Virus record (IMG/VR): IMGVR_UViG_3300044617_001695
Coordinates: 1 to 35,179 of that record
Strand: one strand, 5' to 3'
Source of the DNA: a virus
Length of the DNA: 35,179 nt
Shown here piece by piece: positions 5,887-32,002 of this stretch (position 1 is the first letter of the stretch; every line of letters begins with the position of its first letter). The notes beneath the pieces were generated by a model. It did not search any database and was not told the DNA's origin. It saw nothing but the letters and a program-made list of their open reading frames with translations. The translations under genes and the position numbers were made by a program.

Positions 5887-8637
5887 ATGGCCCAGCAACC
5901 CCGCCGCCAGCGCCGCCAGGGCCTGCCCATCCTGGACGAAAACACCCTGCCCGAAACCGGCCTGGACACCGGCGGCGGCGGGGCCAACGCCATCATGGCG
6001 CGCACCGGCCAGGCCCTGGCCGCGCAGCTTTCCGGCATTCTCGACCGGCGCGAAAACTACGCCGACCAGGTGGCCGGCGAGCAGGCCACCACCGAAGGCA
6101 TGGCCGCCGGCACCGCCAACCCCACCGCGCGCCAGGACGGCGAGAGCATCCGCGCCCGCAGCTTCAACCGCGCCGCCACCGAGGCCGGCCTGCGCACGCT
6201 GGAAATTGGCGTGCGCGACCGGCTGGACGAGATCGCGCGCGACCACGGCAGCGACCCGGTGAAGTTCAACGAGCTGGCCGGCGCGCACGTGCAGGGGGTG
6301 CGCGAAACCCTGCCGCCCGAAACGCAGGCCCGCTTCGCCCTGACGGCCGAGGCCCTGCTGCAGCCCTACCGCAACCAGGTGCGCCGCAACGCCGACAGCG
6401 CCGCCGCCGACGAGCGGGTGGCCACGTTCAACGCCGCCGCCGATCGGCGCACCACCACGGTGCAGCGCCTGGGCGCCGCCGCCCCGGTGGACCCCGCCGC
6501 GCAGCAGCAGCTGCGCGCCGAGCTCAACGCCAACGCGGCCGACCTGGTGAACCTGGGGCCGCGCACTGCGTTCACGTGGCTGGGCCGGCAATACCCGGCC
6601 GACCCCACCCGCGCCGGCGCGCTGACCTTGCAGCAGATGCACACCGCGCAGCGGCGCCTGGAGGACCAGGCCACCGAAGCCACGGTCATGGGCATTTTCA
6701 ACGCCGGGCCGCGCGACCTGGGATGGGTGGAAACCTGGCGGGAAAACACGCTGCGCCAGCCCGGCATGGTGCGCCCCCCGGCGGCCGATGCCGCCAGCTA
6801 TGCCGCCGGCGTGCGCGCGCTGGAAAGCCCGGACGGCCGCGCCAACCCATCGGGCGCGACCGGCTTCTACCAGATCATGCCGGACACGCGGGCAGCCTAC
6901 CCGCCCGGCACCAGCGACGAGGCCATTCTGGCGGCCGAAACGGGGCGCAACCGCCGCACCATGGCCGCCCGGCTGGGCCGCGAACCGACCGACGCGGAAA
7001 CCTTCCTGGCGCACCGGCTGGGCGCCGCCGGCGCGCTGGCCGTGCTGACCGCGCCGCCCGGCACCCCGGTGCGCGACGCGCTGGCCCCTGTGTTCGACGG
7101 TTCCGGTCGCGGCCGCCCGCCGGTCGAAAAGGTGCTGGAACAGAACCCCTATTTGCGCCGCGCCCCCACCACCGACCAGCTGGTGGCGCAAATCGGCAAC
7201 GACTGGGCGCGCGTGGCCGGCGGTGGCGCCGACACCTCGGGCCAGCTGCGCCCCGACCAGGTGGAACGCCTGGCCGGCCAGATGCGCGCCGAGATTGCCA
7301 ACCGCGCCGCCGTGAGCCGGGGCGAGCTGGCCGATATTCGCGTGCAGGGCACCGACCTGCGCACCCGCCTGAATGCGGGGCTGGACGTGCCGGCCCAGGC
7401 CTTCATCGACCTGGCAGCCCGCGCCGAAACGCTGGGCGACCAAAGCCTGGCCGCGTCATATCGGCGCGAGGCCGAGGTGCACAGCACGCTGGTGGCGGCC
7501 CGCGCCATGCCCATGGCCGACCTGATGCGCGAAGCCGGCCGCGCCGCCGAACGCGCCGGCCAGGAAGGCGCCGACGGCAACAGCGCCATGCTGGCCCAGG
7601 GTTACGCGCGCCTGGTGGTGGCCAAGCAGAACGCCCTGGCCGCCGATGCCCTGGCCTATGGTGCGCAGGTGCACCGCGCCGCCGTGGGCACGCTGGCGCC
7701 GCTGGACTTCTCCAGCGCCGACGCGGCCGAAGCCGGCCTGCGCCAGCGCGCCAGCCAGGCCACCCGCGTGGCCGGCATCGAAGGCCTGGAAACCGTGTTG
7801 CCGCTGACCGCCGGCGAGATCGCCGGGCTGAAGGCAAGCATGAACCGCGCGCCCCCCGATACCGGCGCCGCCCTGCTGGGCGCGCTGGCCACCGCGCTGC
7901 CCACGCCGCAGTTCAACGCCGTGATCGCCAAGATCGCCACCGAACAGGACGGCCACGCCCTGGCGGTGGCCGGCGCCGTCTATCAACGCGACCCGGCGCT
8001 GGCGCAGCAAATCCTGGACGGCCGCCGCCTGATCGCCGAAACCAAGCCCGACCTCGGCAGCCCCGTTGCCCGCCGCGCGGCCTTTCCGGCCGGGGTGGCC
8101 ACGGCCATGCGCGACGTGGCCGGTGACACCGTGGCGCAGGTGACCGCCGCGGCCGAAGCCGCCTATGTGGCGCGCCAGGTGCGCGAGCTGGGGCCGAACG
8201 CGCCATTCGACGCTACCCGCTATGCCACGGCGGTGCAGGCCATCACGGGCAACGCGGTTTCCTGGAACGGCAGCACGCTGCTGCCACCCCGCTTCAACAT
8301 GCCGCAGGCCGATTTCGGCCGCATCATGGGCGCCCTGACCGACGCCGACCTGGCCACCGCCACCAGCGGGCGCGGCCAGCCGATCACCGCCGACATGGTG
8401 CGCCGGCACGGCATGCTGCGCAGCGTGGGCGACGGCGTGGTGGAAATAGACTTTCGCGGCGGCACCGTGCTGGGCGAAGGCGGCGCCGCCTTCCGGCTGG
8501 ACCTGCGGCCCATTGCCGACCGCCCGGCGCCCGTCCAGCCGCCGGCGCGCGCCCCGGCCGGAAGCCGCACCATGCCCACCGGGGGGCGGCGCATTGAAGG
8601 CTTCGACGAAGCGGAACCGGGAGGGGCCGCGCCATGA
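5887..8637 (+). CDS. Internal virion protein with lytic transglycosylase-like domain
   Basis: 916 residues, mostly helical. Around residues 300-390 is an SLT-like core: a likely catalytic Glu at 313 (ALES), then a SGATGFYQIMPDT motif at 322-334, as in goose-type/SLT transglycosylases where Glu lies before a GxxGxxQIxP loop. The domain would cut peptidoglycan locally so that the ejection channel can cross the wall. In T7 the equivalent domain is at the N-terminus of gp16; here it is internal. The gene overlaps the next by four bases (ATGA). Confidence 0.75.
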   Translation: MAQQPRRQRRQGLPILDENTLPETGLDTGGGGANAIMARTGQALAAQLSGILDRRENYADQVAGEQATTEGMAAGTANPTARQDGESIRARSFNRAATEAGLRTLEIGVRDRLDEIARDHGSDPVKFNELAGAHVQGVRETLPPETQARFALTAEALLQPYRNQVRRNADSAAADERVATFNAAADRRTTTVQRLGAAAPVDPAAQQQLRAELNANAADLVNLGPRTAFTWLGRQYPADPTRAGALTLQQMHTAQRRLEDQATEATVMGIFNAGPRDLGWVETWRENTLRQPGMVRPPAADAASYAAGVRALESPDGRANPSGATGFYQIMPDTRAAYPPGTSDEAILAAETGRNRRTMAARLGREPTDAETFLAHRLGAAGALAVLTAPPGTPVRDALAPVFDGSGRGRPPVEKVLEQNPYLRRAPTTDQLVAQIGNDWARVAGGGADTSGQLRPDQVERLAGQMRAEIANRAAVSRGELADIRVQGTDLRTRLNAGLDVPAQAFIDLAARAETLGDQSLAASYRREAEVHSTLVAARAMPMADLMREAGRAAERAGQEGADGNSAMLAQGYARLVVAKQNALAADALAYGAQVHRAAVGTLAPLDFSSADAAEAGLRQRASQATRVAGIEGLETVLPLTAGEIAGLKASMNRAPPDTGAALLGALATALPTPQFNAVIAKIATEQDGHALAVAGAVYQRDPALAQQILDGRRLIAETKPDLGSPVARRAAFPAGVATAMRDVAGDTVAQVTAAAEAAYVARQVRELGPNAPFDATRYATAVQAITGNAVSWNGSTLLPPRFNMPQADFGRIMGALTDADLATATSGRGQPITADMVRRHGMLRSVGDGVVEIDFRGGTVLGEGGAAFRLDLRPIADRPAPVQPPARAPAGSRTMPTGGRRIEGFDEAEPGGAAP

Positions 8638-23738: not shown

Positions 23739-23963
23739 ATGGACCTTCGCAGCTATCTTGCCGAGCACCGACTGACGCACGAGGCCTTCGCCCGCCAGAT
23801 CGGCGTGACGACCTCGGCCGTGACCAAGCTGGTGGCCGGCACGCGGCCCAGCTGGCCGACCATGGAGCGCATCGTTGCCGCCACCAGCGGCGCCGTGACC
23901 CCCAACGACTTCCTGCCCCCCACCGCCACCACCCCGGCCCAGGCCGACCAGGTGGCCGCATGA
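23739..23963 (+). CDS. Cro-like HTH protein
   Basis: 74 residues from ATG 23739, seven bases after the promoter -10, with no ribosome site: leaderless. The helix-turn-helix is HEAFARQIGVTTSAVTKLVAG, followed by RPSWPTMERIVAATSG. This is the size and layout of Cro/YdaS-like switch proteins divergent from a repressor. The C-terminal 24 residues (GAVTPNDFLPPTA..., ending ADQVAA) are duplicated at the end of the next small gene. The stop overlaps the next ATG (ATGA). Confidence 0.75.
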   Translation: MDLRSYLAEHRLTHEAFARQIGVTTSAVTKLVAGTRPSWPTMERIVAATSGAVTPNDFLPPTATTPAQADQVAA

Positions 23964-24091
23964 TCGACCTGACGCAGGGGTGGTGGCTGGACGAGCGGGG
24001 TCAGCTGGTCTGGCGCCCAGGCGGCGCCGTGACCCCCAACGACTTCCTGCCCCCCACCGCCCCGGCCCCGGCCGACCAGGTGGCCGCATGA
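23887..24091 (+). repeat. Tandem duplication of the Cro-like gene tail
   Basis: Bases 23887-23927 and 24021-24061 are identical (41 bp). After a short divergent stretch with a 6-base length difference, 23943-23963 and 24071-24091 are again identical (21 bp), each ending in the ATGA overlap with the next gene. The spacing is 134 bases at the left end. Confidence 0.85.
23960..24091 (+). CDS. Chimeric 43-residue ORF: unknown start joined to duplicated Cro tail
   Basis: Begins MIDLTQGWWLDERGQLVWRP and ends with a copy of the Cro-like C-terminus. It is coupled by ATGA on both sides, so it is probably translated, but it looks like the 5' end of one gene fused to a copy of another gene's 3' end. 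The natural partner of the first 20 residues is not in the window. Confidence 0.45.
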   Translation: MIDLTQGWWLDERGQLVWRPGGAVTPNDFLPPTAPAPADQVAA

Positions 24092-25838: not shown

Positions 25839-26954
25839 ATGGCCGAAGCCGCGCCCGGTTCCCGCCCCCCCGCTGCCCGCCCCCCCGCTGCCCGCCCCAT
25901 GGTGCCGATCGCCGAGATCGCCGCGCGGCTGGACGAACGCGCGGGCGAGCTCGCGGCCGAGTTGCTGCCCGGCGGCCGGCACGATCGTGGCCAATGGCGC
26001 TGCGGCAGCATCTTCGGCGACCCCGGCAATTCGTTCGTCTACACGCTGGCCGGCCAGCACCGCGGCCGCTGGCACGAATTCAGCGACGGCAGCCACGGCG
26101 ACACGTTGGACCTGGTGGCTGCGGTGCGCTTCGGCGGCAACAAGAGCGACGCGATACGCTGGGCCCGCCGATACCTCGGCATCGATGACGCCGACCCGGC
26201 GGCGCTGCGCCAGCAGGCCATGGTGCGCGCCGAACGCCAGGCCCAGGAAGCCCAGCAGCACGCCGAGCACGACCAGGCCCGCCGGCGCCAGGCCTGGGCC
26301 CGCTGGCTTTCCGCCACGCCGATCAAGGGCACGCCGGCCGACCTCTATTTGGCCGGGCGTGGCGTTGGCCTGGCGCAGCTGGGCCGCGCGCCGCGCGCGC
26401 TGCGCTTCGCCGCCATGGAATGGAACGACGAGGCGCGCATGCACATGCCGTGCATGCTGGCCGCAATCGTGCGCGCCGACGGCAAGCACCTGGCCACGCA
26501 CCGCACCTGGATCGAACGCGACGGCGCCGGCGGCTACCGGAAGGCCAAGCTGAAGTACCCCAAGAAGGTGCTGGGCGCGTTCGCCGGCGGCACCATCAAC
26601 CTCTGGCGTGGCCAGTCCGGCAAGCCGCTGCGCGACGCGCCCGACGGCGACACGGTGGCCCTGGCCGAGGGCATCGAGGACGCGCTGACCGTGGCGCTGG
26701 CCTGCCCCACCTGGCGCGTGCTGGCGGCCGTGAGTGTGGGAAACCTGGCCAACGTGGCCTTGCCGCCGGCGATCGCCGAGGTGGTGCTGGTGCTGCAGCG
26801 GGATGGCGAGAACGACCAGGTGCGCCGCGCCCGCGACGCGGCCGAACGGCGCTTCATGGAGGAAGGCCGCAGCGTGAAGCGGGCCCTGCCACCAGAAGGC
26901 CACAAGGACTTCAACGACTGGCACCAGGCGCAGCTGCGCCAGGGGGCGGCATGA
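25839..26954 (+). CDS. DNA primase with Toprim domain
   Basis: 371 residues. A Pro/Ala repeat (PPAAR twice) at residues 10-19 precedes an N-terminal domain (45-115) shaped like the zinc-binding domain of phage primases (GRWHEFSDGSHGDTLDLV) but without the cysteine quartet. The C-terminal Toprim domain has catalytic Glu277 (LAEGIEDALT) and an acidic loop at 322-326 (RDGEND), ending in KDFNDWHQA. It should make RNA primers for replication together with the ATPase/helicase at 30176. Its last 40 bases recur at 27299-27338. Confidence 0.8.
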   Translation: MAEAAPGSRPPAARPPAARPMVPIAEIAARLDERAGELAAELLPGGRHDRGQWRCGSIFGDPGNSFVYTLAGQHRGRWHEFSDGSHGDTLDLVAAVRFGGNKSDAIRWARRYLGIDDADPAALRQQAMVRAERQAQEAQQHAEHDQARRRQAWARWLSATPIKGTPADLYLAGRGVGLAQLGRAPRALRFAAMEWNDEARMHMPCMLAAIVRADGKHLATHRTWIERDGAGGYRKAKLKYPKKVLGAFAGGTINLWRGQSGKPLRDAPDGDTVALAEGIEDALTVALACPTWRVLAAVSVGNLANVALPPAIAEVVLVLQRDGENDQVRRARDAAERRFMEEGRSVKRALPPEGHKDFNDWHQAQLRQGAA

Positions 26955-27271
26955 TGCCCATTCGCCCGGACCAGCGCGCGCGCTACCCGAAGGACTGGAA
27001 GGCCATCAGCCTCAAGGTGCGCAACGAAGCCGGCTGGCGCTGCGAACAATGCGGCGCGTGCCATGGCGTGGCGCATCCCGACACCGGCAGCACCGTGGTG
27101 CTGACCGTGGCGCACCTGGACCACCAGCCCGAGAATTGCGACCGCGCCAACCTGCGCGCCTGGTGCCAGCGTTGCCACAACCGCCACGACGCGCCGACCC
27201 GCGCGGCTGGCCGAAAGGCAAGGCGCGTGGTGGAGCGCGGCACGCTGCCCCAATCCGGCCTGCCGTTTTGA
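26951..27271 (+). CDS. HNH endonuclease
   Basis: 106 residues from ATG 26951 (ATGA overlap). Zinc-binding CxxC pairs at 31-34 and 72-75 flank the catalytic core: His55 in VAHLDH, Asn67 in ANLRAW, His76 and His79 in CHNRHD. This is a canonical HNH domain. Early-operon HNH proteins nick DNA during replication or recombination, and some act as homing enzymes; the role here is open. It is accessory material inserted between primase and methyltransferase. Confidence 0.85.
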   Translation: MMPIRPDQRARYPKDWKAISLKVRNEAGWRCEQCGACHGVAHPDTGSTVVLTVAHLDHQPENCDRANLRAWCQRCHNRHDAPTRAAGRKARRVVERGTLPQSGLPF

Positions 27272-27281
27272 GGCCCGGCAC

Positions 27282-27338
27282 ATGATCTTTGTCCCGACCG
27301 ACTGGCACCAGGCGCAGCTGCGCCAGGGGGCGGCATGA
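27282..27338 (+). pseudogene. Chimeric junction ORF (18 residues)
   Basis: ATG 27282 reads MIFVPTDW followed by HQAQLRQGAA and TGA. The first 25 bases (27281-27305) copy the start of the gene at 27970 (one mismatch, 27969-27993). The last 40 bases (27299-27338) copy the end of the primase gene (26915-26954) exactly. The two overlap in CGACTGG. It is a recombination fossil that still couples to the methyltransferase by ATGA. Confidence 0.85.
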
Positions 27339-27973
27339 GCCAGCGCGTTATCGTTGGCGACTGCCGCGCAGTCCTGCCCACGCTGCAGGGCGCCACGGTG
27401 GTGATCACTGATCCCGTGTGGCCCAACTGCCCGCCCGGCTTGCTGCAAGGGCATGATCGCCCGGCGGCGCTGCTGGCCGAGGCAATGGAGGCCCTGCCTT
27501 CGAGCGTGAAACGTGTGGTGCTGGTGCTGCGCAGCGACTGCGACCCGCGGTTCCTTGCGGGCGTGCCGGCGCGGTTCCCCTTCTTCAACGCCCTGTGGCT
27601 GCGTTACGCAATGCCAGGCTACATCGGCCGCAAGCTGGGCGGGTCCGAGATCGCCTATGCGTTCGGCGAGCCGATCCGCAGCGCACCGGCGCAAAGGCTT
27701 GTGCCCACGTTTTCGCCGGTGGCCCAGCCGCGCGACCGCCTGGCCAACGGGCACCCATGCTCGCGCGCGCTGGTGCACTTCGACTGGCTGGTGCGCTGGT
27801 GGACCGAAGCGGACGACGTGATCGTTGACCCATTCTGCGGCAGCGGCACCACGCTGGTGGCAGCGCTGCGGCAAAATCGCGCGGCCATCGGCATCGAGAT
27901 CGAGCCAGCCTATGCCGAGATCGCCCGCGCACGATTGGCCAACGAAGCCCCGTTGCTGGCGGTGGGCGCATGA
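27335..27973 (+). CDS. DNA methyltransferase (N4-cytosine/N6-adenine type)
   Basis: 212 residues. The order is catalytic motif first (TDPVWPN, Asp26-Pro27-Val28-Trp29) and AdoMet-binding motif last (VDPFCGSGTT at 164-173), i.e. the beta class of amino-methyltransferases; the N-terminal VGDCRAVLP is also typical. DPVW in place of DPPY/DPPW is unusual. No target-recognition insert of normal size is present, so it is a compact enzyme. It may protect phage DNA from restriction. It was probably brought in with the duplicated flanks described at 27282-27338. Confidence 0.85.
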   Translation: MSQRVIVGDCRAVLPTLQGATVVITDPVWPNCPPGLLQGHDRPAALLAEAMEALPSSVKRVVLVLRSDCDPRFLAGVPARFPFFNALWLRYAMPGYIGRKLGGSEIAYAFGEPIRSAPAQRLVPTFSPVAQPRDRLANGHPCSRALVHFDWLVRWWTEADDVIVDPFCGSGTTLVAALRQNRAAIGIEIEPAYAEIARARLANEAPLLAVGA

Positions 27974-28134
27974 TCTTTGTGCCGACCGACTGGCGCGTGG
28001 TGGTGGCACGGCTGACCGACGGCCGGGTGCGCATTTATGGCGCCGCGCCCGGCGAGAAGCTGCGCGTGCTGCTGGAGGTGAGCGGCGACCAGGCCGCCGC
28101 CATGCTGCCCGAGCTGCGCGAGGTGGCGCGATGA
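27970..28134 (+). CDS. Small protein after the methyltransferase, unknown
   Basis: 54 residues from ATG 27970 (ATGA overlap). It begins MIFVPTDWRVVVARLTDGRV and ends in a helix (DQAAAMLPELREVAR). It is the intact version of the gene whose first 25 bases are copied at 27281. No family is recognised. Confidence 0.6.
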   Translation: MIFVPTDWRVVVARLTDGRVRIYGAAPGEKLRVLLEVSGDQAAAMLPELREVAR

Positions 28135-28277
28135 ATTCCGGCCGGGTGCCTGAACACCTGGCCGGCATGCGGGCGTGCGCGCGGCTGCGCACGCGGTCCA
28201 TCGTGGACGTTTCCCACCGGCACCTTGCCGCGCGGCCGCGCCTGGCCGCGCGGCACTTTTCGAGTGGTGCCGTATGA
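28131..28277 (+). CDS. Possible small basic protein
   Basis: 48 residues from ATG 28131, coupled by ATGA at both ends. It is His/Arg-rich. The C-terminal third is encoded by the arms of the hairpin at 28226-28255, so the amino-acid sequence there may be a by-product of RNA structure. Coupling is the main support. Confidence 0.4.
   Translation: MNSGRVPEHLAGMRACARLRTRSIVDVSHRHLAARPRLAARHFSSGAV
28226..28261 (+). terminator. Intrinsic terminator/attenuator candidate
   Basis: TGCCGCGCGGC (28226-28236) pairs perfectly with GCCGCGCGGCA (28245-28255), 8-base loop, followed by CTTTTC. This is the best intrinsic terminator I see in the window. It lies inside the right operon, just before the winged-HTH gene, so it may set a step-down in expression or need antitermination. 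Confidence 0.6.
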
Positions 28278-29080
28278 CCCGCGCGGCGCAGGAAACCCAC
28301 GGCGAGCGCATTCTGGCCGAGCTGCAAATCTACCGCGGCAGCGTGGTTTCGCGTGCACAGCTGCTGGCCGCCATGTACCGCGATCGGCCGATCCCGCTGG
28401 GCGCGGTCGAGTGCCTGCGCGTGCAGGTCACCAGGCTGCGCGCCCAGCTGTACGCGCCCTGGCGGATCGTGAGCATCCGCGGCGTGGGCTACCGCCTGAC
28501 CGACAAGCCGCCCGCCGACCTTTCCCCCATCCAGCCCCGAGGTTCCGCCATGCGCGCCATCATGTTTGCCGTGCTGCTGCTGCTGCCCGCCCTGGGCCAC
28601 GCCCAATGGTACGCCGACAGCATCAACAGCCCGAACAGCCCGCGCGCGCTGAGCGTTAGCAGCAGCGCCGGCGGCGCCGGCGGCAGCGTGACCATGCGCG
28701 ACCGCCTGCAGGCGTCAGGCCTGGGCAGCTACGCCGCGGCCAGCGGGCCTTGCGTGGGCGCCAGCACCATGGCCGGCCTGACCTTCCCAGGCATCGGCGC
28801 CCAGGGCGGCCGCACCGAGATCGAGCCCGAATGCCAGGTGCGCGAGGCCGCGCGGCTGCTGGCCGCCATGGGCGACACCGAGGGCGCGCTGCGCCTGATC
28901 CGCAGCCTGCCCAGCGTGCGCGCGGTGCTGGCCGAACCGCCGGCGGTAGTGGCCACCGCGCCGATCGCCACGCCGCCCGCCGCGGCCGCGCTGGTGGCGC
29001 CGGCGCCGGCCCGGCCGGCCTGGTGCGACACCGCCAGCCCGGCCGACGGGCCCCGCGTGCAGGCCGCCTGCGCGCGCTGA
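28274..29080 (+). CDS. Winged-HTH protein fused in frame to a signal-peptide protein
   Basis: 268 residues from ATG 28274. Residues 5-75 form an OmpR/PhoB-type winged helix (RILAELQIYRGSVVSRAQLL, then VQVTRLRAQL and IVSIRGVGYRL). No stop codon separates it from residues 93-268, which begin with a hydrophobic segment (MRAIMFAVLLLLPALGHA) and continue as a Gly/Ser/Ala-rich, Cys-containing domain. As one protein it would have the layout of ToxR/CadC regulators: cytoplasmic HTH, membrane helix, periplasmic domain. As two proteins, the second starts at 28550. Both may be made. Confidence 0.55.
   Translation: MTRAAQETHGERILAELQIYRGSVVSRAQLLAAMYRDRPIPLGAVECLRVQVTRLRAQLYAPWRIVSIRGVGYRLTDKPPADLSPIQPRGSAMRAIMFAVLLLLPALGHAQWYADSINSPNSPRALSVSSSAGGAGGSVTMRDRLQASGLGSYAAASGPCVGASTMAGLTFPGIGAQGGRTEIEPECQVREAARLLAAMGDTEGALRLIRSLPSVRAVLAEPPAVVATAPIATPPAAAALVAPAPARPAWCDTASPADGPRVQAACAR
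28550..29080 (+). CDS. Secreted protein from an internal start of the same frame
   Basis: 176 residues from ATG 28550 with GAGG eight bases upstream. It has a textbook signal peptide with a likely signal-peptidase I site after GHA (residue 18), then a mature domain with a PCVGAS stretch, ECQVREAARLLAAMGDTEGA and an Ala/Pro-rich tail ending in two Cys-containing segments. The mature part resembles small periplasmic phage proteins of unknown function. Choosing between this start and the longer fusion needs experiment. Confidence 0.5.
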   Translation: MRAIMFAVLLLLPALGHAQWYADSINSPNSPRALSVSSSAGGAGGSVTMRDRLQASGLGSYAAASGPCVGASTMAGLTFPGIGAQGGRTEIEPECQVREAARLLAAMGDTEGALRLIRSLPSVRAVLAEPPAVVATAPIATPPAAAALVAPAPARPAWCDTASPADGPRVQAACAR

Positions 29081-29088
29081 CCCTGGCC

Positions 29089-29253
29089 ATGAACGCCTTG
29101 GGGCCCAGGCTATCCGCCGCCGCCGCCGGCGTGGCGTATCGCCCCGACATGGCTAACCGCGCGTTCCCCAAGCTGTACCCATGCGCGCGGCATGCTGAAA
29201 CCCCTGCCTGGGCGCAAGTGAGGTGGGAAAATGTCGGGAGCCGGCAACCTTGA
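29089..29253 (+). CDS. Doubtful 54-residue ORF
   Basis: ATG 29089 opens a frame that ends at 29253, inside the truncated helicase-start copy. It has Arg/Ala/Pro composition, no clear ribosome site and no recognisable motif. Listed only because nothing else occupies 29081-29249. Confidence 0.2.
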   Translation: MNALGPRLSAAAAGVAYRPDMANRAFPKLYPCARHAETPAWAQVRWENVGSRQP

Positions 29254-29290
29254 CCAAGCCACCCAGCAACGTGACCTTGATGGGCGCGCG
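29250..29290 (+). pseudogene. Truncated copy of the replicative helicase start
   Basis: 29251-29276 is identical to 30177-30202 (26 bp), and 29251-29290 matches 30177-30216 with three mismatches. It encodes TKPPSNVT with TTG in place of the ATG, then loses similarity after about 14 codons. It marks the left edge of the reversed cassette. Confidence 0.8.
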
Positions 29291-29314
29291 CTGCCTCGGC
29301 GCGCCCGTGGCCGG

Positions 29315-29591: not shown

Positions 29592-29840
29592 TCAAAGCAA
29601 GCTGGGCTGGGCAGCAACTGCGTTGGTCCGTGACTTGTGGCCGCAGTAAAGGGCCAGCACATCGGCAAGCGGCCAGGGCTGCTTGCTGATGCTGACCGAG
29701 CGGAAAACGGTCCAATCGCGCGCCTTGTTGTCGCACCCGGCGCGGGTCATGGCTTCGTATGCCGTGGCGCGCGTGCAGGGGATGCCGCCAAAGCTGATCA
29801 CTTCCAGCATCATGCGCGCTGCAAGATTGGTCTTGGTCAT
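29592..29840 (-). CDS. Middle gene of the reversed cassette, unknown
   Basis: 82 residues; ATG 29840 is preceded by AAGGGAG in a leader copied from the first gene. It begins MTKTNLAARMMLEVISFGGI and has two Cys and several Trp. The TRATAYEAMTRAGCDNKARD stretch could be a helix-turn-helix. No family is recognised. Confidence 0.6.
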   Translation of the reverse strand: MTKTNLAARMMLEVISFGGIPCTRATAYEAMTRAGCDNKARDWTVFRSVSISKQPWPLADVLALYCGHKSRTNAVAAQPSLL

Positions 29841-29862
29841 GTCGGTAGCTCCCTTGTTGATG
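29835..29862 (-). repeat. Duplicated leader, copy 2
   Basis: Identical over 28 bp to 30057-30084. On the minus strand it comprises CATCAACAA, the ribosome site GGGAG, ACCGAC and the start ATGACC. The same leader therefore serves the first two genes of the cassette. Confidence 0.9.
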
Positions 29863-29864
29863 TT

Positions 29865-30062
29865 TCAGGCGTATTCGGCGGTTTTGGCGACGCGGCGGCG
29901 GATATACGACCAATCGCCTGTCGCGATCACATTGCCGCGATCCGTCAGCGCCCACCCCTTCTTGCCATGGCGCAGCACGATCAGCCCGAGGTCAAAGCGG
30001 TCGATCGCGGCTTGCAGCTGCTTGGCGTTCGCTGCCGTGTCGCAAATTTCGTAAGCGGTCAT
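29865..30062 (-). CDS. First gene of the reversed cassette, unknown
   Basis: 65 residues; ATG 30062 with AAGGGAG. Begins MTAYEICDTAANAKQLQAAI and continues LGLIVLRHGKKGWALTDRG, ending with a WSYIRRR helix. It has alternating strands and helices and mixed charge. It is the promoter-proximal gene and so probably the most expressed product. Base composition is less GC-rich than its neighbours, suggesting transfer. No family is recognised. Confidence 0.65.
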   Translation of the reverse strand: MTAYEICDTAANAKQLQAAIDRFDLGLIVLRHGKKGWALTDRGNVIATGDWSYIRRRVAKTAEYA

Positions 30063-30084
30063 GTCGGTAGCTCCCTTGTTGATG
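30057..30084 (-). repeat. Duplicated leader, copy 1
   Basis: 28 bp identical to 29835-29862. Its left end on the transcript falls about six bases after the -10 hexamer, i.e. near the expected transcription start, so the duplicated unit is almost exactly the 5' untranslated leader plus two codons. Confidence 0.9.
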
Positions 30085-30175: not shown

Positions 30176-32002
30176 ATGACCAAGCCACCCAGCAACGTGA
30201 CCCCGATCGGCGCGCGCCTGCGCAACGCGCCGGCGGCGCCGCGCCGGCACAGCGTGCTGCCCGAAGATTGCCCGATCACGCCGCTGGGCGTGGAAGGCAA
30301 GAAAAACTGGTTGCTGGACGCGCTGGGCCAGTTGATTTCCGCCACGCCGCAGGAACTCGGCGCGGCCTGGCTACCTAATCTTTTCACGCCGCACGTCAGT
30401 TACTTGGAAAAGCACTGGCCGCGCAAAACCAAGATCGTCGACAAGAAGGCCGGCACGGTTGAATGGGTCATCAACGGCATTAAGGCTGAGCAGGTGCGGG
30501 CGGATATTGTGCAGGCCTGCGGTGCGCTGGGCGTGTGGAGCCCGTACGCCAAAGTGCGTGGCAGGGGCGCCTGGCGCGGCGAGGATGGCGACCTAATCCT
30601 GCACTGTGGCGACGTGCTGTACATCAACGGCCAGATCACGCGGCCCTGCGTGCGCAACGGCATGGTCTATCCGGTCTACAGCGCGCGCCCGCGCCCGGCG
30701 GCAGATCCCGAGCCCGGCGGCGGCACCGGCGCCGGTCACCAACTGCTGACGATGCTCAACACCTGGTCATGGCATCGGCGCGGGCTGGACGCGCGGCTGC
30801 TGCTGGGCTGGGTCTGCGCGGCCATCCTGGGCGGCGCTCTGCACTGGCGGCCCGCCTGCTGGGTTACTGGCGACCGTGGCACCGGCAAATCCACCCTGCA
30901 GGAACTTATCCGCTGCGTGCTGGTCGACGGCGAAGGGATATATTCGGTTTCGGACACGACCGCCGCCGGTATCCGCAGCGCCGTGGGGTTCGACAGCCTG
31001 CCCGTCGGCCTCGATGAGCTGGAGGCCGAGGAAGACAACACGCGGGTCAACGCCGTGATCGGCCTGGCCCGCCAGGCCAGTAGCGGCGGCGTCATCCTGC
31101 GCGGCAGCAGCGACCACAGCGGCGCCAACTTCATCGCGCGCTTTGCGACGCTCTACAGCTCGATCCTCATACCGCCGTTGCGCGCACAGGACCGCAGCCG
31201 CATCGCCCTGCTGGGCCTGCGCCCGCTGGGCAACGCGCGGCCGCCCGTGCTGCGCCCCGACGAGTTGCGCGAGCTGGGCCAACGCCTGATGCGCCGCATG
31301 GCCGATCGCTGGCAGCATTTGCCGGCGGCCATGGAAACCTGGCGTGAGGCGCTGATGGCCCAGGGCTACGACAGCCGCGGCTGCGACCAGTTCGGCACGC
31401 TGCTGGCCTGCGCTGACCTGGCGCTGGAGGACGAGCCGATCGACAGCGACAGCTTGGCCGAGATCGTGGGGCGCCTGGTCGACAGCACGGCCGACGAACG
31501 CGCTGACGAGCTGGCCGATTGGGCGCGGTGCATCGAGCACCTTACCACCAGCGCCGGGCCCATCCTGCCGGGCAAGATGCCGGCCACGGTGGGCACGCTG
31601 ATGGCCATGGCGGCGGCGCGCCCGGTCATCCGCGATGCCGACACGGGCGACAGCCGCCGCCCCGACCCAAAGCAGCAGGCGGATGCAGCAGACATGCTTT
31701 CCATGATCGGGGTGCGCGTGATGGAGCACGCGCCCAACCAGCCGGCCATGGTGGCCGTGGCGAACAGCCACAAGGGGCTGAACGGGGTGTTCCAGGGCAG
31801 CCATTGGCAGGCGCGCAGCGGCGCCAGCGGCACGTGGAAACAGGCCCTGGGGCGCTGCCCTGGCGCCGTGGCCAGCGCGGCCGCGGTGCGCTTCCGTGGC
31901 ACGCAGCAGCGCGCCGTGCTGGTGCCGCTGGCCCGCATGCTGGGCGAATACGACGCGGCTGCGGCGGCCCCCACCTCAGCCGACACCAGCGACGCCACAT
32001 GA
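30176..32002 (+). CDS. Replicative ATPase/helicase (primase-helicase-like)
   Basis: 608 residues from ATG 30176. Walker A GDRGTGKST at 232-240 and a Walker B-like acidic pair at 280-281 (PVGLDELEAEED) lie in a P-loop core containing SVSDTTAAGIRSAVGFDSLP and a GGVILRGSSDHSG segment. This pattern belongs to a phage/prophage family of replication ATPases related to helicases. The N-terminal 200 residues may bind DNA or primase. It is followed directly by an iteron-rich region, as expected for an initiator-helicase. A broken copy of its first 14 codons lies at 29250. Confidence 0.75.
   Translation: MTKPPSNVTPIGARLRNAPAAPRRHSVLPEDCPITPLGVEGKKNWLLDALGQLISATPQELGAAWLPNLFTPHVSYLEKHWPRKTKIVDKKAGTVEWVINGIKAEQVRADIVQACGALGVWSPYAKVRGRGAWRGEDGDLILHCGDVLYINGQITRPCVRNGMVYPVYSARPRPAADPEPGGGTGAGHQLLTMLNTWSWHRRGLDARLLLGWVCAAILGGALHWRPACWVTGDRGTGKSTLQELIRCVLVDGEGIYSVSDTTAAGIRSAVGFDSLPVGLDELEAEEDNTRVNAVIGLARQASSGGVILRGSSDHSGANFIARFATLYSSILIPPLRAQDRSRIALLGLRPLGNARPPVLRPDELRELGQRLMRRMADRWQHLPAAMETWREALMAQGYDSRGCDQFGTLLACADLALEDEPIDSDSLAEIVGRLVDSTADERADELADWARCIEHLTTSAGPILPGKMPATVGTLMAMAAARPVIRDADTGDSRRPDPKQQADAADMLSMIGVRVMEHAPNQPAMVAVANSHKGLNGVFQGSHWQARSGASGTWKQALGRCPGAVASAAAVRFRGTQQRAVLVPLARMLGEYDAAAAAPTSADTSDAT

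Follow-up and report, generated by a model that had tools for sequence, protein, structure and literature searches.

A chimeric 18-codon open reading frame as the probable scar of an additive crossover between the primase and helicase genes of a phage

Morons are extra genes inserted between genes that are adjacent in relatives, and gene addition to tightly coupled phage operons is usually inferred from finished mosaics with worn-away joins. One described case is gene 68 of mycobacteriophage Island3, which Brujita lacks; over its final 18 codons (about 60 bp) it duplicates the 3′ end of gene 67 (Pope et al. 2011, PMC3029335, Fig. 5C). The explanation given was a recombination event at the repeat, either between phages or within one (PMC3029335). 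Short conserved boundary sequences have been discussed as module-joining sites in phage mosaicism (PMC3029335, PMC2327257), as has homeologous or short-homology recombination (PMC2327257). In cluster K mycobacteriophages, start-associated sequences (SASs) place a 13-bp motif at many genes, probably for translation initiation (PMC3203893).

We analyzed an uncultivated virus record of 35,179 bases, referred to in its entirety as the window. It encodes an integrase, tubular-type tail proteins, and a terminase, and the phage therefore looks like a temperate podovirus-like virus. Its primase and the D5-like helicase at 30176 form a replication pair, between which lies the cargo block listed in Table 1.

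Table 1. Features of the window that bear on the join and on the surrounding cargo block.
Feature	Coordinates	Strand	Remarks
43-aa ORF, 3′ part copying the 3′ tail of the preceding HTH regulator gene	23960..24091	+	41 nt + 22 nt exact around a short gap; ATGA on both sides
Toprim primase gene	25839..26954	+	phrog_510 DNA primase; PF13362 Toprim_3, PF23639 DUF7146
Primase 3′ tail, original copy	26915..26954	+	SD-like GGGGG, stop codon, ATGA overlap with HNH; anti-SD duplex -10.3 kcal/mol
HNH endonuclease-like gene, 106 aa	26951..27271	+	phrog_1571, E 2.8e-25
Chimeric 18-codon ORF MIFVPTDWHQAQLRQGAA (then stop), probable recombination scar	27282..27338	+	ATG 27282, TGA 27336-27338
Copy of the start of the gene at 27970	27282..27306	+	24/25 nt identical to 27970-27994
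Microhomology CGACTGGC, 8 nt	27299..27306	+	common to both parents of the join
Second primase 3′ tail copy	27299..27338	+	40/40 nt identical; ends in ATGA overlap with the methyltransferase start
DNA N4/N6 methyltransferase gene, 212 aa	27335..27973	+	PF01555, E 5.3e-15
54-aa 'MIFVPTDW' (MIF) gene	27970..28134	+	no relative in any collection searched
48-aa ORF	28131-28277	+	cargo
Trans_reg_C-type wHTH gene	28274-29080	+	cargo
Relic of helicase gene start, about 41 nt, TGACCAAGCC onward	29250..29291	+	copy of 30176-30217
Two minus-strand cargo genes	29592-29840, 29865-30062	-	starts share a perfect 28-bp repeat
D5/primase-helicase-like replication gene	30176..32002	+	directly after primase in 51/128 loci

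Between the HNH and methyltransferase genes lies an 18-codon ORF that a preliminary description had read as the start of the gene at 27970 (25 nt, one mismatch) joined to a perfect 40-nt primase end. Position-by-position alignment bore this composition out. The second part, 27299-27338, equals 26915-26954 over all 40 nt, a stretch that takes in the end of the primase gene with its TGA stop and reaches the ATGA overlap; the first part departs from the MIF gene start at the single position 27293 (GTC/GTG, both Val), and the similarity continues 5 nt upstream of 27282 (28/30 nt). The span had been given as 27281-27338, of which the end is right and the start one base early. Likewise, a shared CGACTGG of 7 bp had been noted at the join; the microhomology is real and measures 8 nt, as all three sequences (ORF, primase tail, and 27970 gene start) agree over CGACTGGC. 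About 3e-13 exact repeats of 40 nt are expected in a window of such size and composition, and chance as the source of the copied segments is excluded. The microhomology also exceeds chance, with probabilities for an 8-nt match at a random join of 0.0004 (composition model) to 0.0009 (empirical). ATGA overlaps connect primase to HNH, the miniORF to the methyltransferase, the methyltransferase to MIF, MIF to the ORF at 28131, and that ORF to the gene at 28274. The earlier statement that every ATGA coupling had been kept intact thus holds for these five junctions and fails from HNH to the miniORF, where a 10-nt gap separates the HNH stop (27269-27271) from the start at 27282. That the ORF is a junction and no real gene was upheld: a longer version is absent from all relatives examined, and degenerate DNA patterns for both of its halves gave no matches in viral contigs. 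The window being a record from an uncultivated virus, a metagenome assembly artefact comes to mind; it is scarcely credible, since assemblers join over far longer overlaps than the 8 nt at the sole new adjacency, and analogous scars are present in other records.

The anatomy is one already known from Island3 gene 68, and the window is a further example of that kind: the inserted ORF repeats the 3′ end of the upstream gene at its own 3′ end, here over 40/40 nt. Three things set the window apart from gene 68: what precedes the tail has itself been copied, from the beginning of a third gene; the scar has a cargo gene on either side; and other lineages re-use the tail of the same gene, primase. 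As with the boundary sequences of mosaic phages, a short shared sequence at a gene boundary is the joining site, but in the window it belongs to a coding 3′ end with an SD-like site, joined at 8 nt at the upstream edge. New are the double-copied scar, made of one gene's start and another's tail, the recurrent use of a single gene's tail, and the ribosome-binding-site argument developed below.

Related loci were collected with a primase profile, which gave 35 genome loci, mostly from Acetobacteraceae and Sphingomonadales, along with 80 viral ones, and with a helicase profile, which gave 70 further loci; a search of one host family (299 genomes) added more. The resulting comparison set comprises 128 non-redundant loci with both primase and helicase, window included; L numbers below denote single loci. 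Primase and helicase are adjacent or overlapping in 51 of the 128, and at least 150 nt of unrelated cargo separates them in 67, the window having the largest gap of all (3.2 kb). The kinds of cargo include C5 and D12 methyltransferases, Mom, DUF5131, GcrA, ASCH, a NUMOD3 protein, and unknowns. As with morons, then, the window carries extra DNA between genes that adjoin in other phages; the 51 loci with adjacent genes have one tail each, but even the nearest full-length primases share only about 53% identity with that of the window. An ATGA, GTGA, or TTGA is found at the primase stop in 58 of the 67 loci with cargo and in 44 of the 51 in which the genes adjoin. Unlike morons, the first cargo genes look translationally coupled to primase; the ATGA coupling suggests read-through expression rather than expression from a promoter and terminator of their own. 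A clean natural cargo swap at gene boundaries is found between the sister phages L079 and L180, which are 97.2% identical up to where the first cargo gene ends and 99.2% identical again from the beginning of the helicase gene, with unrelated cargo between. The switch points are the end of gene A and the helicase start (L079 2428-3697 versus L180 4063-4822).

We then scored the best ungapped match of each primase's own last 60 nt in the 97 intervals of at least 60 nt, with tails swapped from other phages as controls (12 per interval, 1,164 scores). The window scored 40, L180 28, L171 21, L177 16, and L064 15, and a single control of the 1,164 reached 14 or more. Close repeats in general were also surveyed, but coding tandem repeats dominated the outcome, and that survey was kept out of these statistics. 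In L171, the tail copy is exact over 25 nt across the ATGA. The stop that closes the copy overlaps the next start in the window, L171, and L064. In L180, the second cargo gene ends in a primase-tail copy that matches at 36/40 nt and encodes the same amino acids; all four differences from the phage's own primase tail fall at third codon positions, which suggests a foreign origin, and the copy is probably the allele of another phage. A frame of 8 codons (L180 4808-4834) runs from a GTGA start to an ATGA end and bridges the tail copy and the helicase start. The anatomy in L180 is the same as that of the scar in the window, and the 8-codon frame resembles the 18-codon frame. The matches in L177 and L064 are short, and the L177 copy, which is not at a gene end, may be merely a shared initiation signal. 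Copied primase tails recur in other lineages, clearly in L180 and L171 and more weakly in L064.

The copied tail carries a strong ribosome-binding site and an ATGA, and the methyltransferase consequently has the initiation signal of HNH: the 20 bases upstream of the start are the same for both genes, and pairing with the 16S 3′ end is identical at the two starts (-10.3 kcal/mol, against 5% and 1% levels of -8.0 and -10.6 kcal/mol in the window background). For the tail copies in other lineages, the anti-SD strength is -11.6 kcal/mol in L180, -10.7 in L064, and, weaker, -5.2 in L171. The 18-codon frame may thus serve as a translational relay from HNH to the methyltransferase. With SASs the window shares repeated DNA at gene starts, probably for translation initiation, but its repeat is a 40-nt copy of one gene's end. 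One could read all of the repeats as shared functional signals (SD plus stop/start) that converged or spread as the SASs may have, with no insertion history. Every copy does contain or adjoin an SD-like stretch, start signals are repeated elsewhere in these phages (L204, L007, and L117), and SASs are documented (PMC3203893). Such a reading is nevertheless highly implausible: a perfect 40-nt coding end plus a 25-nt gene-start copy in one frame exceed any SD signal, so that the length of the window copy already excludes it, and swapped-tail controls with the same kind of signal fall short of the scores given above.

We consider it probable that an additive, unequal crossover at the primase–helicase cargo site put HNH and methyltransferase in tandem and left the ORF as its scar; the retained tail may have been under selection. 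One parent would have contributed primase, HNH, and the start of the MIF gene; the other, which may have been another phage or another genome copy, would have contributed its own primase end followed by methyltransferase and MIF. Joined at the 8 nt of shared sequence, the two would yield a product with both cargo genes. A crossover ending inside the partner's primase tail would bring in the partner's next gene together with its initiation signal, and the copied tail would have been retained by selection for that signal. Ribosomes leaving HNH would re-start 10 nt on and, by way of the 18-codon frame, finish on the methyltransferase ATGA.

An intragenomic route to the same product is unlikely. 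It would start from a phage with a single cargo gene, in which two copies of the phage underwent unequal crossing-over or template switching at CGACTGGC and gave the order primase–cargo–scar–cargo–MIF, one cargo copy being later replaced by HNH or methyltransferase via homologous exchange. Consistent with such a route, the two primase tails of the window are identical, and no second parent was present in the collections searched. It requires two events, however; the tail copy in L180 is a different allele, and cargo exchange between phages is directly visible in L079 and L180. Homing is very unlikely: the HNH nuclease would cut near the primase 3′ end of HNH-less phages and be copied in at repair, leaving a flanking duplication. 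The HNH gene does adjoin the duplicated tail, and HNH relatives lie near the replication module upstream of primase in L304 and L308 and downstream of helicase in L324, none between the two genes. Most HNH relatives are not beside a primase, however, and tblastn with the window HNH found none in the gap of the tail-scar phages L180, L171, and L064. Nor was an HNH family found among cargo proteins in the Pfam survey or among the top 25 PHROGs families listed, and the regulator-tail duplication at 23960 has no recognized nuclease gene alongside.

The additive crossover is favored over these routes, and several of its expectations were followed up. The preliminary description had proposed a two-parent crossover uniting the accessory genes, with parental orders primase–HNH–MIF and primase–methyltransferase–MIF. 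The junction itself, the cargo swaps, and the recurring tails agree with the crossover; neither parental order was found among the 128 loci, although this absence carries little weight, the collections containing no close relative of the whole phage. Scans of viral and genome contigs with the single MIF and primase proteins gave no confirmed parent, and alignment-based scans of the gap in the 35 genome, 80 viral, and 70 helicase loci showed no HNH, no methyltransferase of this type, and no MIF. The MIF side of the join is not traceable in relatives, because neither tblastn nor phmmer, the latter run on 30,033 ORFs, gave a convincing relative of the 54-aa protein. To say that the junction reveals how the methyltransferase was added was an over-reading, as the join is compatible with either HNH or the methyltransferase as the second arrival. 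In the helicase tree the window groups with L162/L163, and in the primase tree it does not (AU p = 0.069 and 0.117, not significant); the direction of this disagreement is the one expected from a two-parent origin. No phage single-strand annealing protein was found among the minus-strand early genes, and no phage recombinase able to anneal 8 nt was recognized in the window.

Because copied primase tails recur in other lineages, additive crossover is plausible as a general process at the primase–helicase site, and the presence of comparable scars at this position in relatives suggests that new genes are plugged in there with a translation signal attached. More tentatively, and with considerable doubt on our part, the primase tail might be a portable coupler (coding end, ribosome-binding site, and stop/start) copied with each incoming gene, allowing stepwise cargo uptake while translation of the replication operon stays unbroken; in that case, phage operons that load cargo step by step would generally be recognizable by such tail copies. 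With 40/40 nt, the join in the window is fresh and displays the microhomology through which it formed; comparable scars occur at the primase gene in other lineages. If selection for a copied ribosome-binding site holds true, phage genomes could be screened for copied gene tails as traces of acquired genes.

Other boundaries in the window have a similar appearance. The segment 23887-24091 is a second tail-duplicating insertion in the same genome, in which the 43-aa ORF closes with the duplicated 3′ tail of the HTH regulator gene that precedes 23963, and the helicase-start relic at 29250 is a second boundary scar within the same cargo block. The relic sits upstream of the minus-strand gene block, as if a similar event had inserted that block. 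The perfect 28-bp repeat at the two minus-strand gene starts occupies 29835-29862 and 30057-30084. The closest helicase-side relative, L161 (72%), has the same minus-strand material in a different order, and the start of its related minus-strand gene has other upstream sequence.

Repeated gene starts were also observed elsewhere. An RBS-plus-start sequence recurs at several gene starts, in the manner of SASs, in L204 (10977-14673), L199 (7798-9283), and L208 (13334-13935); the L204 repeat reads AGAAGGAGCACCGATCATGA on the other strand. In L006, near 5990-6001 and 6640, a methyltransferase gene and the next gene both start with ATGCCTGAGATGCGCG; this may be a gene start that was copied at a further insertion.
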